From Schizochytrium sp. TIO01 (lineage: Eukaryota > Sar > Bigyra > Thraustochytrida > Thraustochytriidae), in contig SMSO01000036.1 in the NCBI GenBank assembly GCA_004764695.1, positions 950,001-1,014,000 of the forward strand: DNA of 64,000 nucleotides, in the 5' to 3' direction. The stretch's first letter is position 1; each line of letters opens with the position of its first letter. The position numbers and the translations under genes are program-made. Under the pieces are notes generated by a model that made no database searches, was not told the origin of the DNA, and was given only the letters and a program-made list of their open reading frames with translations. This document shows, one piece after another, positions 44,452 through 57,339 of the stretch.

Positions 44452-44994
44452 AGCCTCAAGGAGGAGAGGCCCTTCAAATCGGTGCTGGAACCTTAATCAT
44501 ATGAACCTTAAAGCTACACTACTCCTAAGCAGCAACAGTAGACAAGAGCAGTTTCTCTTCTCCTCTGCGCTTATTTGCGCAAAGTTATTCACAACTGGTA
44601 GAATTGTTTCTTATGTTCTCCAAGTGGTCTATATTACTTACTGGCGATGGTACTCTCACGAATTGGAGTCCTAAGAGATCTTCTTTAATTCAAGTCAGTC
44701 AAAGCAGTCGCTCGTTTGACGATGGTACCTGCCTACCTACCTAAAACGTTAAAATCTTTTAGCAAGGTGGGGAAAACCCCACGTCAAAACGCTTTTACTG
44801 ATTACCGCATCGCTGGAGATGAAGATATTGAAGACGTGAATGGATGTTATGGGGTGCTAGAAAGCGAGTCAGTCTCTAAGCTCTATCGCATCGGACGACA
44901 AATTCACTCAAGCTTGGGAGTCTCTCGGCGGAAGAAGGCTTACTCAACTACGAACCTATCTTTCTACCTACAATACAAATCTTTTAGCTTGTTG

Positions 44995-45052
44995 GACAAA
45001 CAAAACAAACAAACAAACAAACAAACAAACAAAAAACAAAAAAAACAAAAAG
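44995..45052. repeat. (CAAA)n microsatellite
   Basis: About seven perfect CAAA units followed by A-rich variants. Confidence 0.85.
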
Positions 45053-45216
45053 CATGAACTTCAATGATCTCTTAGAAAACTAAAGGCCCTTTGGCTTAAT
45101 ATGATCACGGAGCAGCAAGGTTTTTGGTAGAACATGTTAACCAGGCAGTACGTGTTTGTTGTCTTGATTCGTCCATTTCTCATCATTTGATCAATTATTT
45201 CTTTTCATTAAAATTT

Positions 45217-46044
<828 letters not shown>

Positions 46045-47838
46045 TAAAAAGAGTTTAAAAAAATAAGAAAAAGAAGGTAAAAATCACAAAGGAAGGAAGG
46101 GCTCTTTCCAAAGGACCTCGAGCAGAATAGAACTACCTCAGCTCAGAACCAACCAATGAACAACGTCGAAGTCGAAGGCCCCACGCCCCCATTAAGAACC
46201 AACAAGACTCGACTTCGCCCAGCTCTTCATGCCAGAGCTTGCTAGTCTCCCGATAAATAAACACCTACTCTCGAGCAGCTGAGGTATCTTTAGCCCAAGT
46301 GCCCATTGATTGCACTGGTCTCTGCTTGCAAGGCGCAGGTATCAACGCCTCTGCCAATGCTCCAGCCCATGAACTAAGGACCATGGGACGGCTCAGTCGC
46401 GAAGAAGAGCGCTGAGCAGAGCCCCGGAAACGGCACGTGTTTCCAAGGGAGGAATTGAATGACAGACAGATTCCGAGGGGAATGTTGACTCTTGGATTCC
46501 TCCATTCTTTCGACCTCCCGACCTCGAGAGTTTGTTTCTGACGGGACAGAGGCTTCAAGCCATGAGCAAACGCGTGAACAAACAAGTCGAACCGTGCTCG
46601 ATAGTAAAAGCTCTCGTCGCGCGCGTCAAGCTCCATCTGCGGAGCGCTTGGGCTTCTTCTGCCCAAGAAGGAGATTGAGCGCATGCATGTGCTCGCCCCA
46701 TCGGCACCAGTTCCTTCGTTCAGTTTCTCCCATCTCTCTCCAAGACCTCAGCGTCGCAGATGCGTGGAGAGGAACCGTGGCGCAGGAACTTCGCCGCCGA
46801 GGCATAATAGCGGCGTCTGCGAACCCACAAACAGACCGGCAGAGGGGGCCTGGTCCGCCTCGCTTCGAGAGGACCAGCGCAGTGCTGTGCATTGAGCTCT
46901 ATAGTGAATATGAACTGTTTCCAAGAACCAGAGCTGATTGAAAGAAAGAAAGAAAGAAAGCAAAAGCGCTCACTCCCTTACTTACTTACTTACTTACTGA
47001 GGCGTCGAAAGCGAGTGAGTGGTCCGGCCTGAAAGTCCTGGAGAGAGATGGGCTGCGAGGGTGGGCACGTGTCTACGAAATGCCTTTGGATCATCGTTGA
47101 TTGCCTCTTGCTTGGGGAGGGAGGGAGTGAGTGCGTGCGTGCTTATTCTTTGAGAGTTGGAGGACCGGAAGGGATGCGTCTTTTTCGTTTCTTTCTCTTC
47201 TTATTATTGATTGTAAAAACAGCCAATTACTTTGAAAGAAATTATGATTATCATTATAGTTGTAACTAAATTAGACAGGTAAGTAAATGAACAGAGTAGG
47301 ATTCTAACGAAAATGTTACAACTTCAAGTTGGAACTTGGATAAAACTAATAAATTGAAAACGCTCTTCTTTCTTTCTTTTTCCATTTTTTTTTTAATATT
47401 TTTTTTTAAGTTTTATTTTTTAAGTTCTACTTTCCAAAAGTGATATTTTCTAAAAGCGAGTGGGTACCTAGATGCCTTCTAGCTTTTACTATACAGGTGG
47501 TACTCATCAGCATCACTAGTGGGGAACTACAAGCAACAGTGGTCCGGGCCCGCGTACAGACTTAGTTTTGAAGAAATTACCAAGAACCGCCAAGAAGGAT
47601 CTTTGCAAACCCATATTGCGGAGTTGCTCGTGCGGCTGCCTGATTGGGTACCCTTCGGCGCATAGACACGGAGGTGAACCAGAGCAGCTACACCAAAGGA
47701 ATTGTGCTGCTAGACACACGCCTGATTTTAGCTTTTGCAAACACGACTCTGTCCGAGTTTGAGTAGTCTGTCAACGAGGGGTCCACGCCACGCAAAGAGG
47801 ACGAGCGAGACCTTGACGTTGAACATCAGTGCATAACA
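46045..47838. other. intergenic region upstream of the short CEP164-WW gene
   Basis: About 1.8 kb. A GC-richer part (46,100-47,170) carries overlapping ORFs on both strands (46265-46684 minus, 46492-46941 plus), neither with a recognisable domain. Microsatellites of GAAA (46942-46962) and CTTA (46976-46998) types follow, then T-rich DNA around 47,380-47,430. The last ~80 bp is the 5' UTR of the gene at 47,839. Its sequence does not match the region before the long CEP164 gene. Confidence 0.5.
46942..46998. repeat. adjacent (GAAA)n and (CTTA)n microsatellites
   Basis: About five GAAA units and about five CTTA units separated by a dozen bases. Confidence 0.8.
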
Positions 47839-49000
47839 ATGGCCGATGAGCAAAATGGCGACAGCGTGGTTTTAGAAGAAGAGATTGACCCAGATTATAC
47901 ACCAACGATTGACGAGCAGATTGACTATGGACAATGGCTGGGTATGAGCTTTCCCGAAGATGATGACCTACTCTGGATTGCTCGCGAAGGACTCAAAGCA
48001 CCGCTGCCAGAACATTGGAAACCGTGTCGCACCCTTGACACCGGTGAAATCGTAAGTTGATCAAATGAAGCAAAATGAATGAATAGCCTCGGGGGGCGAC
48101 TTTGCGTATTTGTCATCGAGCTTGTTCCTTGTTCTAGCTTGGTTTGAGGAATGTTTGAAAGACTAACTTTTGGCTGTGGAATTATACTGTCTTGATCGCT
48201 GGGGTTAATTGTGAACGTGTTACTTTTTTATTTATTTTGGGTGCATGTTTGTGTCAACTTTGTGATCATTTCTGAACGCATTAACATTTTGATAGTACTA
48301 CTTTTCTTTTGCTGATGGCCAATCAAGTTGGGACCACCCGTGCGACTCTTTCTACCGCAACCTATATCAAGAGGAGAAAAGAAACCGGAACCTTCGTTCC
48401 AGATCCCAAAACAATCATAGGTTGAACAGCGATACCGGAAGTGAAGAACAATCGGAAACCTCCAGCTCAAGTGAGGAAGACGAAGCGTCAACTACCCCTT
48501 TCGTTTCCCTTTCCCAAGTAAATGAAAATGGAAGCGAGGAATCCACCATCAGTCAACAGCGCACGGCAGCTCCAGTCACTCAAGCAGAAGATTACTTGAG
48601 TTCACCACAATCCGATTTGTCTGGGAACGCACGAAACTCACTCACTGCCAACCAAAACACAGAGGAGGTTTCTTCTGTTGACCCCGGACACCTCGATGAT
48701 GGTGTGACTCACGCAAAAACTGTCACTGTAGCCACGACTCTTGACGAAATTGCCCAAGCAGAAGTTACATATGCTGTACCAAAGCAGCAGCAACATGCTA
48801 TTTTCGATCTTGAAAAGCAGCAAATTGAGACCGCCCGAGCCTTCCACTTGATGAAGAATGTGGACGACAAAGATGATAAAGGTTATGCACGCCCTCTTCA
48901 CCGCGCAAACTCGAGGCTCCAACATTACCTTTACGTTTTGGCATTTTTGGCCTTAGTTCTCTTTCTCTGCATTAATTATCATCGTTGCATTGAAATCTAA
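47839..49000 (+). CDS. CEP164-type WW module fused to a C-terminal tail anchor
   Basis: Two exons: 47839-48051 and 48296-49000, joined in phase 0 for 305 aa. The splice sites are clear (ATC/GTAAGT and TTTTGATAG/TAC), and only splicing restores the domain. Residues 8-50 match the CEP164 N-terminus (VVLEEEIDPDYTPT, LLWIAREGLKAPLP). The WW domain spans about 54-86, with Trp60, YYFSFADGQ and Trp83 in SSWDHPCD. In CEP164 this module binds the kinase TTBK2 at distal appendages to start ciliogenesis. Here the long coiled coil is missing: after LYQEEK come a Ser/Glu-rich acidic linker (about 105-270) and a hydrophobic helix (about 283-299) ending six residues before the stop, a tail-anchor layout. 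It is a paralogue of the gene at 51,881. Likely a membrane-bound WW protein, perhaps on the ciliary vesicle; that is inference. Confidence 0.85.
47850..48363. repeat. 514-bp near-identical tract shared by the two CEP164-type genes (copy 1)
   Basis: It matches 51892-52405 at a constant offset of 4042 bases with four substitutions that I can find: two in exon 1 (giving Asp/Asn and Gln/Lys) and two in the intron. There are no indels. Identity falls sharply at both ends although the coding homology continues. Confidence 0.95.
48052..48295 (+). other. spliceosomal intron within the WW domain (short CEP164-type gene)
   Basis: 244 bp, GTAAGT...GATAG, phase 0. It interrupts the WW domain between Ile71 and Tyr72. 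A branch-like CATTAAC lies 13-19 bases before the 3' site. It differs from the intron at 52094-52337 at only two positions. Confidence 0.9.
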
Positions 49001-51880: not shown

Positions 51881-54800
51881 ATGGCTGCTGCGCAAAATGG
51901 CGACAGCGTGGTTTTAGAAGAAGAGATTGACCCAAATTATACACCAACGATTGACGAGCAGATTGACTATGGAAAATGGCTGGGTATGAGCTTTCCCGAA
52001 GATGATGACCTACTCTGGATTGCTCGCGAAGGACTCAAAGCACCGCTGCCAGAACATTGGAAACCGTGTCGCACCCTTGACACCGGTGAAATCGTAAGTT
52101 GATCAAATGAAGCAAAATGAATGAATAGCCTCGGGGGGCGACTTTGCGTATTTGTCATCGAGCTTGTTCCTTGTTCTAGCTTGGTTTGAGGAATGTTTGA
52201 AAGACTAACTTTTGGCTGTGGAATTATACTGTCTTGATCGCTGGGGTTAATTGTGAACGCGTTACTTTTTTTTTTATTTTGGGTGCATGTTTGTGTCAAC
52301 TTTGTGATCATTTCTGAACGCATTAACATTTTGATAGTACTACTTTTCTTTTGCTGATGGCCAATCAAGTTGGGACCACCCGTGCGACTCTTTCTACCGC
52401 AACCTCTATGAAGAGGAAAAAAAGCGACGGAACCTCAGTAAACAAAACGGGCTGTCCCAGGATAGTTCAAAACGTCACGAATCCGAAAGTGATGATGTGC
52501 GCAGAATCATTGATATGCAGAAGCGCGAAGGAGCTATTGACACGTCTGTACAAAACAAACTCGGCAAAACACGTGGCAAAACTCCACACGATCTCAACGC
52601 TCACAGGCCTGGCCATTCTAATGACATGGGGATGGGATCTGGCGCAGCGCTCAACAAGAAGGCAGTGCTACCGAAAATCAAACGCTCTCCCTTGGAAACG
52701 AACATGCCATCATCAAGATCTGATGTGGAGTCAAATGATGAACAGTCTGAAAAGTCCAGTCCCCGGGCAGGCTCATCGTTGCTCGGGTCGGCACACTCAG
52801 ATCTTTCTGATCAGCGCATGAAGCGAACATCAGTAGCATCCGAAAGAGGATCACAATTGACAGAGGATCGTCGTCGTAAAGGTCGCCGCGGTGACTCAGT
52901 TATTGTAGATGATGGTAACAACTATAGCAACATGAATCGACGCCGCGCGAATGGACACCGCTTCGAAGCCAACAGTCACGTCAGTAGTGGCGAGGAGGAT
53001 GACGAGGATGATGAGGATGAAGATGGTGAGAAAGATGAAGTGATGGGCAATGGGCACGGCCACGGCAGAGACTACAACATGGGATATGGTCGTGACTACC
53101 GGTCTTCGAAAGAACCAGCTTATATGCCAATGCAAAACCGCGGGGAACAAAAACAAGAACATGTAAACGGGGGGCTCTCTAATATTCATGCTGAGAATGA
53201 GCGGAAATTACAGGAAGCTCAAGATGTCTTTGATCAAAGCTTGGAAAACTTACGATTGCGCCTTGCTGATGAGAAAGTAATTCAAGAAGAAGAGCATGAG
53301 CAGCACATTCAACAACTTCAGGATGATTTTAGTAAATTCCAACGCCAAATCAAGCGAGCCCAAGATGACGCTCATCAAAAACACGACGAAGAATTAGCGC
53401 GATTACAAGACGAGTTAGAAAAATTCAATCAACAATACCTGGACAAAAAAGAAGAACTTCAAGAAAATCACAAGAATCTTATGCAAGAGCAAGAAGAAGA
53501 GCTTTCTCGAATTCAACAAAAGTTCAATCAAAAGAAAAACACACTCGATCAGCTTAGAAGAGATGTGGAAGCCTTGGAAGAGCAGTACGATAGGCTTACT
53601 GATATAGGGGATCTTCAACAGCAGTTGCAAGAAATAACCGACAAGGAGGAGTCAAGTCAACAACTTCTGCGAAAGGAGCGAGAGCATCGGGAGCGCATGG
53701 TGTCACAAATTGATGACTTTGAGCGAGAAAAATCAGAACTCATAGCGTCATTCGAGCGTGAACGTTTACAGATTGAGGAGGACTATAGGATTCAGCTGGA
53801 GGCCCAATCAAAACAGCTTGATGAGAAGGGTATCTCTAGTGAAGGGTCTAACTCTCTTACCCCTTCTCAACCATCTCGTGATCCAAACGACGTGGCGGAA
53901 TTAGCATCAAAACAAGAACTGATTGCTGAGTTGCAGAGCCAGCTTCAAGATGTCCGGCAAGCCCTGGAGGCGTCAAGATTGGAAAGCAAAGACATTAGCC
54001 ATACATTGGCAAATGAACGCCTTAAGTTTGAAAACCTTGAAAGTTCACATCAAACACAAGTTCGGGAAATTAGACAAATACAAGCAAACTGCGAAGAATG
54101 GGAAGAAAAATACAATAAGGCTGTGGCATCCTTGCTCGCTTTTCAAGAAGACCAAACACAGTCTGGGAAAACTCTAGATGACGAGGTGACGAAGGCGGGT
54201 AGGCAAACTGAAGCTGCCCTTGAGCGAGCGCGTATTGCCGAGGAGCAACATTCAAGCCAGGCGTTGGCGCATCGCACAGAACGTGAACGGTTGCAGGAAT
54301 GCCTCTCTAAAGCTCAAACCGACGCCAAAGCTTTGGAGAGTCGAGTAGAGGCCCTTGAGCTTACCCTTATCTGAAACAGAAACTGAGGCAAGGCAGTCAA
54401 ACACTGAAAAACGAAAGCTTCAATCGTTACTTGACACTGCACATGAGAAATGTGCAAATGTAGAAAATAGGTGTAAGACGCTTGAGTCTTTGCTTGAGGC
54501 ATCGCGCTCAGAAAATGATCAGAACGAGGTTTCCCAGAATGCACTTGGAAGACTAGAAATGGAATTAAATGAGGCTCGTACTGATTTGATGAACGAGCGA
54601 TCGAAGGCACGTTCTGAACAAAATGCTTTAGAAGAAAACATCGAAGATCTGAAGGCAGAGCTACAAAAAGCAAGGGACCGGGAGATCTCCCTTGATGCAG
54701 AAACAAAGAAGAAAGTGTTCGATCTTCAGGAGAAATTGACTACAGCAGAAACACTTAGCGCAACGTTGAATCAGGAAATTTGTGTTCTTGAGGAAAGGAA

Positions 54801-57339
54801 TGCCGCTTCTCTGGCAGAAGTGCAGCAGGGCGTCGATGCAGAATCCCGCAAGCTCGAAAGTGCTCTTGAAGATGCCGAGGCTGCTCGCGAACAAGCTGAG
54901 GCCGCTCGCGAACAAGCTGAGACTGCTCGCCAACAAGCTGAAGCTTCTTGCAAACAAGCAGAAGTTGCTCGCGAACAAGCTGAAAATGACTTAAAAGAAC
55001 TCGAGCAAGACTTAGAGAATACCACTACGATGCTGAATCAGGAAATCGAATCTCTGCGGGTGCAGTTACTTAGTGCAGCGCATACAACATCTGGCGAAAA
55101 GGGCGATCAAGAAAACCGCCTTGCGCGTCTTTTGCAGGACCTGCATGAAGCAAATATGCAACTTGAGTCAACTGAGGCTCGCCATGCTGAAGATCTCGAG
55201 AATTGGCGGCAGGAGCAAGCACGGTTACGCGAGGATCTCTCAAACAGGGATGAAGATTTAGCTGTGCAGTTGAGAACTGCGCTCCGTGAAGCTACGGAAT
55301 TGCGAGAAGAGAGGGGAAGTCTGAAGCGTAATTTGGAGTCAACAAGGGAAGATGTCGCAAACCACAAAGCGAAGGTTGAGAGCTTACGTGCAGAGTTGCA
55401 TGGAGCGTTGGAGGATGCGCGTGCTTCGAGAGACGAACGAGACCAACTCCGCCAAGAGACTGAAAGACTCAGACGCGAATCTGCGCAGGCAGAGCATGAT
55501 TCTTCGCAACAACATGAACTGTCGTCAATGCAGCGCTCTTTGTATGCACTTCAGGCACAACAGCGTAAACTCGAAGCTGAGCGTAAACAGGCTCAGGAAA
55601 ATGAAGAAGTTGCAATTCAGGATGCCGAGAGCATCAGTCAAGAACTTGCACGAACTAACAAGCAGCTTCTCGAAGAACAACGTCGTGCTGCGACTTTGGA
55701 GCGAGCCCAGCGCCAATTCAGTAATCGTGAAGCATTCTTAAATTCTCGTGTGTCAGATCTGGAAATCGAGTTGGAGGACTTACATAACAAGGCCGACACT
55801 CAGGAAGAGAAAGTTCGTAAATTAAGCGACAGGTGCAATAAGCTTGAAAAGGAACGCAGTATTGTCATTACAGAACGCGACAGACTTCTCGAACAGAATA
55901 AGGAGTTGGAAGATTCTCTTTCCGCATTAAGCATGACCAAGTCAACCTCTAGTGATATGGAGCGTCGTCAGCGAAAACTAGACGTTGAGCGACAACAGCT
56001 GGATGAAGAACGCCGGGCTATGGATAAGGAAAAACGCAAGATTGATGAGCGAGCAAAGGCAGTTAAACAGCAACTCCTACGCATTGAAGAGCGTATCCGT
56101 CGGGAAGGGAAATTCAATAGTGAGAATGATATGTCAGAGGTAAATGCGGCTTCCTTTTCTCGAATGGGAGGGCGTATTTCCACTCCAAATAAAGAAGAGG
56201 TCCTTGCTTCCGCAACATATTGGAATGATGGTGCCGAGGAAGAGCGAAAGGCCTTTGATGCAGCACGCGACATCCTTCATACCCAACATCGAGAGCTCGA
56301 AGATCAACGTACTCGACTGGGCAAGCAACAGGATACGTGGCGGGAAACCGAGGGACGCTCTTCATTTGCAATCAGCAAGGTTGGCAGCATTCTAGAGCTT
56401 CAAGAGGATGAGTTGACAGAAACGTTGCGCGAGCTCTCGCAAAAGCTAGAGTGGCTTCAAACTGTATCGGAACTGCACGAGAAGGTTTCCAAGAGTGCCA
56501 TGGCGCTACTCGAGCACCCAAGTGATTCCGATCTTCGTGCAAACTTTCTGCAGAACCTTGATGAGTACCGTGCAGAACAATTTTTTGTGGAAGACCAGGA
56601 TCGTGGCGATGAGGGAAATTTGTATGGTGTAGCTGATGAAAATGAGTCTTTATTTGGCAACTCTAACCAGCACGACCGCTATGCATCGTTCGGCCCCTCT
56701 CATCGAATGAATAACAATTCGCGACTAGGGGGGGCAGCCATGAACGTGCCTCCTCCCCCAGTCCCACCTGGGCCTGCAAGCTATGCTTACCCTGTATACC
56801 CGGCACACACAATGCCTTTGCAGCCGATGTTCATGCCTGCGCGGCACCCGACTGGATCAACTGTGGTTTTTGTAAATGAGAATGGCCAAATCTTGCAAGA
56901 GTCGACTATTCAACCTGTCATGCATGTGCCTCGGTCTCGGGCTTTCCGTGGCTCAGGGAATAACCATGTAGAGAATGGTTACAACAGAATGGAGGCTATG
57001 CAAGGTTACGGGCTCGGGCCTGAGACTTCTCCAGTGCCAAGTGCACCATTACACGAAGTTTCTATGTTGCCTGAGGAGGTGCGATTGATGGAATCGCGAT
57101 GGAATGAACAGCAAGCCTTTGCACAAGAGCACTCTCAATGGCTGATGAATTTCCGCAGAGACCTTGAGCGTGTTTCATCCGTGCCCTCTGTAGTCTCTGC
57201 CTCGAGCTCGTCTTCGAGACGCGGAACGCTTAAATCCGAGCACCGGCGCTCACGTATTGTGCCACCCAAACGCGCCCGACAACGTACACGACGAGATCTC
57301 CCACGCACATATATACCAGATTTTGAAACAAAGATTTAG
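51881..57339 (+). CDS. CEP164: CEP164-like distal-appendage protein, long form, with an apparent +1 frame change
   Basis: Exon 1 is 51881-52093 and exon 2 begins at 52338 (phase 0). N-terminus and WW domain (about 54-86: Trp60, YYFSFADGQ, SSWDHPCD) match CEP164, the distal-appendage protein that recruits TTBK2 and docks vesicles at the basal body. After an acidic and basic linker, coiled coil runs from about 357 to 1440, including five heptad-like repeats (AREQAE type) at about 920-955. A Pro-rich segment near 1541 (VPPPPVPPGP) and a basic C-terminus follow; total about 1737 aa, against 1460 in human. Exon 2 stops at the TGA 54372-54374, while the coiled coil resumes in the +1 frame. That frame is closed by the TAG at 54346-54348, so the shift must lie in 54349-54374. 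Skipping T54372 (ATC-T-GAA) restores one protein. Sequencing error, mutation and programmed frameshifting are all possible. Confidence 0.85.
51892..52405. repeat. 514-bp near-identical tract shared by the two CEP164-type genes (copy 2)
   Basis: Partner of 47850-48363; see that entry for the differences. Confidence 0.95.
52094..52337 (+). other. spliceosomal intron within the WW domain (long CEP164 gene)
   Basis: 244 bp with GTAAGT and TTTTGATAG borders, phase 0, in the same position as the intron of the paralogue. Confidence 0.9.
54881..54985 (+). repeat. 21-bp tandem repeat in the CEP164 coiled coil
   Basis: Five copies of a 21-bp unit coding for GCTCGCGAACAAGCTGAG-like codons (seven residues, AREQAEA type). 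Copies 1, 2 and 5 are closest, copies 3 and 4 carry changes (ARQQAEA, SCKQAEV). A 21-bp unit adds exactly one heptad to the coiled coil. Confidence 0.85.

Follow-up and report, generated by a model that had tools for sequence, protein, structure and literature searches.

A putative tail-anchored CEP164 paralog beside a full-length CEP164 gene in Schizochytrium sp. TIO01

Here we report a two-exon gene of Schizochytrium sp. TIO01, gene A, that probably encodes a real tail-anchored paralog of CEP164, whose head is predicted to face the cytosol from a membrane and would bridge to CEP164 or compete with it; this reading is drawn from sequence comparison and structure models. The gene lies on the forward strand of a 64-kb window, which is the whole stretch of DNA analysed and to which all coordinates below refer (GCA_004764695.1, contig SMSO01000036.1, positions 950,001-1,014,000 forward; the genome comprises 64,063,054 bases in 37 contigs). 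Exon 1 (47839..48051, + strand; 71 codons) encodes the N-terminal extension, the first two helices and the first WW strand of the CEP164 head, and exon 2 (48296..49000, + strand) encodes the rest of the WW domain, the third helix, a linker, a helix at residues 234-262 and a C-terminal hydrophobic helix, and ends with a TAA stop codon. The intron between them (48052..48295, + strand; 244 bases) has the donor GTAAGT and the acceptor TAG and differs at 2 of its 244 positions from the corresponding intron of the neighbouring gene B. Translation is taken to start at the first ATG of the exon 1 open frame, which has A at -3 and G at +4. After splicing, the two exons are in frame and yield a protein of 305 aa with the junction at residues 71/72, and the alignment with human CEP164 spans this junction and has its one gap elsewhere, in agreement with the initial annotation, which had joined the exons into one gene. 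The layout proposed there, a CEP164 module followed by a putative membrane tail, is supported, but the annotation missed gene B, a full-length coiled-coil CEP164 at 51881-57339, 4 kb downstream, so that gene A is a tandem paralog.

The CEP164 head and the full-length gene downstream

By sequence and structure model, gene A carries the complete N-terminal domain of CEP164, a helical bundle with an inserted WW domain, as had been proposed from the sequence alone. Its sole Pfam domain is WW (residues 56-86), which at 27.5 bits scores slightly above the curated cut-off of 26.9. A search of PDB sequences returned four matches, two of them strong: human CEP164 alone (chain 7o0s_B, 47% identical to gene A residues 6-100, E 5.6e-29) and CEP164 fused to TTBK2 (E 9.7e-29). 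In the AlphaFold2 model, for which the alignment had 32 rows (the gene A protein and 31 of 72 protein-search matches), residues 21-110 reach a pLDDT of 95-98 by block, the mean over the whole protein being 71.5. All five Foldseek matches of this model at E <=0.001 are to the N-terminal domain of human CEP164, with E values between 1.1e-10 and 2.1e-8 and TM scores by target of 0.60-0.86 (0.84 for 7o0s_B).

The ligand of human CEP164 packs against Y73, F75, F77 and W84, assisted by D10 and Q11, and R93 is a disease site (PMC8752127, in excerpt); a second interface, predicted and partly tested, involves D85, H86 and D89 (PMC8983713, in excerpt). When human residue numbers were transferred to gene A by counting along the PDB sequence alignment, 10 of the 11 checked head residues proved to be the same as in the human protein (D10, Y73, F75, F77, S82, W84, D85, H86, D89 and R93), the groove residues Y73, F75, F77 and W84 corresponding to Y72, F74, F76 and W83 of gene A. 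Human Q11 is replaced by Ser in both gene A and gene B, as it is in 20 of the 31 aligned matches, 4 others having a gap there. Judged from this alignment, the CEP164 ligand groove is retained in gene A. Human CEP164 (1460 aa; N-terminal domain in PDB 7O0S, 7O06, 7NWJ and 7O3B) thus resembles gene A in its helical bundle, its inserted WW domain, D10 and the residues of the two grooves, whereas gene A differs in its length of 305 aa, its lack of a long coiled coil, its C-terminal hydrophobic helix and the Ser for Gln 11. The long C-terminal coiled coil of the CEP164 family has no counterpart in exon 2, which ends in the hydrophobic helix.

A search of the genome with the gene A protein returned the second copy at window positions 51881-52102 and 52332-52490. 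Gene B consists of exon 1 (51881..52093, + strand), an intron (52094..52337, + strand) and a remainder (52338..57339, + strand) that encodes the WW domain, a linker and a long coiled-coil-like region. This remainder divides into an open frame at 52338-54374 and an overlapping one at 54349-57339, and the metagenomic protein P0073 (1257 aa) runs as one chain across both, with 259 of 265 columns identical at the end of the first frame and 983 of 997 columns, with 3 gaps in the alignment, over residues 3-996 of the second. From this comparison we take gene B to be a single gene, in which the frame change at 54349-54374 would more probably reflect a sequencing difference or a lesion of this strain than an intron. 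The two genes are alike through almost the whole of exon 1, the intron and the WW domain and into the beginning of the third helix, whereas beyond this point gene B has its own linker and coiled-coil-like region and gene A an unrelated linker and a hydrophobic helix.

Elsewhere in the genome, four more long ORFs (L013, L014, L015 and L016) carry CEP164-like helical and WW modules at 30-37% identity; the frame of L014 matches twice, the other three look like coiled coils by eye, and the portions read hold no stretch above 1.03 on the Kyte-Doolittle scale. WW domains are numerous in this genome (at least 150 at E <=0.001, from 150 scored of 219 first-look candidates); several matches lie in multi-WW ORFs, and 0 of 14 control genomes gave a signal.

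Since the heads of genes A and B are nearly the same, we infer that they share a ligand. In animals the WW domain of CEP164 is used by both TTBK2 and INPP5E, as excerpts of the literature state (for TTBK2, PMC8752127). According to an excerpt of PMC7833213, reciprocal best BLAST recovers no orthologue of TTBK2 in Trypanosoma brucei, which does have CEP164 proteins, and neither TTBK2, the animal partner named in the initial annotation, nor any other ligand is therefore to be taken for granted in a protist. A search of the genome DNA for the pattern PRPPxGxP with Ser allowed for Arg, modelled on the TTBK2 motif (PMC8752127, in excerpt), gave 16 matches against 21 in the reversed control, as expected by chance, and the kinase catalytic motif occurred in 0 of 16 open frames around these matches (3-kb loci, introns disregarded). 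Cilium genes are present in the genome, as indicated by two matches to IFT57 (E 1.3e-97 and 2.5e-32), for which three control genomes gave signals below the cut-off, and by one to FAM92 (E 1.5e-6), which scored 32.6 bits where the cut-off was 23.6 and for which the control genomes gave no signal; the FBF1 family had no match in the genome.

In the reading that we prefer, the tail would insert post-translationally and leave the head cytosolic at the membrane of a vesicle, of the flagellar base or of the ER, where it would bind the proline-rich ligand or ligands of CEP164, TTBK2-like or INPP5E-like. The gene A protein would then either carry the ligand on the membrane to the basal body or limit the access of the ligand to CEP164; by analogy with animals, a ligand of the TTBK2 or INPP5E type would make sense on a membrane. 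An unlikely special form, not additive with the preferred reading, is that of a decoy or buffer, in which the membrane-bound head keeps the CEP164 ligand off the basal body and dampens or times ciliogenesis. The near identity of the two heads and the lack of a long coiled coil in gene A are consistent with such a role, as are the binding of the TTBK2 peptide by the isolated human head (PMC8752127, in excerpt) and the competition for the WW domain in which, by excerpted accounts, TTBK2 and INPP5E may engage, but the present data fit bridging equally.

The tract common to the two genes

Genes A and B differ at only 4 of 513 positions over a common tract (47851..48363, + strand) that covers most of exon 1, the whole intron and most of the WW exon, two of the differences being in exon 1, both amino-acid changing, and two in the intron. 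The edges beside this tract have 11 differences in 42 bases (3 in the first 12, 8 in the next 30). The 30-base edge (48364..48393, + strand) is diverged and homologous, being identical to gene B 52406-52435 at 22 positions; its best plus-strand match in the window falls exactly at the expected place (22/30, the next best being 18), and it encodes the third helix, LYQEEKRNRNL in one copy and LYEEEKKRRNL in the other. Past 48393 identity drops to 9-15 per 40 bases, and upstream of the ATG the two genes are unrelated, with 155 of 200 positions different.

The contrast between tract and edges is strong (4/513 vs 11/42, Fisher P 1.4e-10; intron 2/244 vs edge 8/30, P 3e-7), both values being optimistic because the borders were picked after the alignment had been viewed. 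Selection on the protein alone cannot hold an intron at 99% while coding edges fall to 73%, and conversion is therefore the simplest account of the tract. From these comparisons gene A looks like an older tandem duplicate in which gene conversion has recently homogenised the binding head: a partial tandem duplication would have been followed by the gain of its own tail, and the head would later have been made alike to that of gene B. A distinctly unlikely alternative, which concerns origin only and fits any function, is a recent partial duplication of ~0.5 kb beside unrelated sequence without conversion; most of the shared block is indeed uniformly ~99% identical, but such a copy would need to start near the ATG and stop within the third helix, and the edges, diverged yet homologous, would go unexplained.

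The acidic linker and the hydrophobic helix

Beyond the head, the protein continues into a linker (residues 106-275; codons 48398..48907, + strand) that is net acidic (29 D/E vs 13 K/R) and largely modelled as disordered, with no homology to gene B found. AlphaFold2 gives residues 121-217 low confidence and no helices, and places the only helices beyond the head at 218-230, 234-262 and 273-304. The last of these, with a pLDDT of 93 (281-290) and 95 (291-300), contains the most hydrophobic 19-residue window of the protein (residues 279-297; 48917..48973, + strand), where the Kyte-Doolittle value peaks at 2.21, 8 residues before the C-terminus; windows of this length above 1.0 are confined to residues 275-305. 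The acidic linker and the C-terminal hydrophobic helix named in the initial annotation are thus both found, and its statement that the protein has no coiled coil is largely correct, with a predicted helix at 234-262 ahead of the last helix.

Tail-anchored proteins carry one hydrophobic helix, no more than 30 residues from the C-terminus. Hydropathy and the AlphaFold2 model agree on one such C-terminal helix in gene A and none elsewhere, a layout like that of tail-anchored proteins. The hydrophobic end alone is not rare, because equally hydrophobic ends occur in 6 of 314 stop-to-stop ORFs of >=60 aa in the 64-kb window (44901-46200 left out; real genes and gene A included). Among other features of the window, a TAA microsatellite (45216-46044; ~278 copies, 97% matches) lies ~1.8 kb upstream of gene A, and ARAGORN found no tRNA in the 64 kb.

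A search of 5.8 billion proteins gave a single relative of the tail, the metagenomic P0001, which is 99% identical over 97% of the region. This 192-aa JGI protein, with 3 sequences on 2 contigs behind it, has the same C-terminus as gene A and shows by eye one I/V difference from the gene A tail, a degree of conservation close to that of gene B in P0073; P0001 may come from the same species as the window. The matching tail and end of P0001 speak against an assembly artefact at the C-terminus, the danger that the initial annotation had seen in a continuation beyond 49000. Local alignment offered no sign of an origin of the tail in gene B: residues 106-305 against the rest of B scored 64, compared with a shuffle mean of 52.4 (sd 6.9; 0.066 of 500 shuffles scored as high), and against the gene B linker alone 43, compared with 38.0 (0.172). 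In a genome search for homologs of the tail, only the gene A exon itself, out of 17 matches at E <=1, passes query residue 211; a weak match (E 0.067) covers gene A residues 57-211.

The frame that stays open from the gene A acceptor runs for 234 codons (P ~7e-6 per start point at the local stop frequency). The overall codon score of the tail, 0.093 bits per codon, is positive in its own frame only, of six, and is higher than in any of the 66 open runs of >=60 codons between genes (best 0.059), on which same stretches the noncoding background was trained; for the transmembrane part alone, one reverse frame is positive too (0.053). The synonymous-codon part of the tail score is about zero (-0.013, compared with 0.035 for gene B's own stretch), and the signal therefore reflects amino-acid composition, with no support from codon bias.

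That gene A is a relic, a truncated tandem copy without a useful protein whose tail is read from formerly noncoding DNA, would agree with this weak codon score, with its missing synonymous bias and with a tail whose one homolog is the near-identical P0001. We consider it very improbable, as the start, splice sites and head residues are intact, the 234-codon frame is open, the tail is kept in P0001 and the diverged edge retains both its frame and the sequence pattern of the helix. Scarcely credible is the use of the gene A promoter and exon 1 as a second CEP164 promoter, spliced mainly to gene B exon 2: the two first exons are near-identical and in the same phase, but a skip of ~4.3 kb would be needed past an intact acceptor 244 bases away, and the frame of gene A exon 2 continues without a stop as far as its conserved end.

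Distribution and significance of a putative membrane-borne head

To our knowledge, no tail-anchored protein with a CEP164 head has been described. The same view in the initial annotation agrees with a search by title and abstract, in a literature that excludes most subscription papers, which found, among the papers listed, no protein combining a CEP164 head with a membrane tail. Trypanosoma brucei likewise has several CEP164 proteins in one protist, but its CEP164A, B and C all have a C-terminal coiled coil, unlike gene A (PMC7833213, in excerpt), and the word "transmembrane" is absent from the main text of PMC7833213 and PMC11190437.

Among 136 CEP164-type proteins (72 and 64 further ones, the latter from the best 7987 word-sharing candidates; many come from short contigs and are possibly incomplete), two, P0001 and P0035, show a hydrophobic stretch when their last 45 residues are scanned. 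The latter, from another source, is a 491-aa predicted protein with a CEP164 head, then what by eye seems the start of a coiled coil, and a hydrophobic stretch that lies 14 residues before the C-terminus; its gene model may extend into an intron. The search for the same architecture, suggested in the initial annotation, thus recovered the same tail in P0001 but, beyond the candidate P0035, no second clear membrane-tailed CEP164 in 5.8 billion protein sequences, and the layout probably has a narrow distribution.

Still more tentatively than for gene A itself, we suggest that the two genes could form a unit, in which conversion keeps one head the same at two addresses, a basal-body CEP164 and its membrane-borne, tail-anchored twin; one ligand that binds both would act as a handshake coupling docking with ligand delivery. 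The conversion tract hints that the same binding is useful in both places, and passive conversion between close tandem copies is also possible. In animals, CEP164 is required for the docking of basal bodies to the membrane, by excerpted accounts, and the part of it that binds TTBK2 is the head (PMC8752127, in excerpt). If the preferred reading of gene A as a tail-anchored paralog is true, a natural membrane-borne head would separate the binding function of CEP164 from its centriolar address and would offer a simple test of the role of the CEP164 head.
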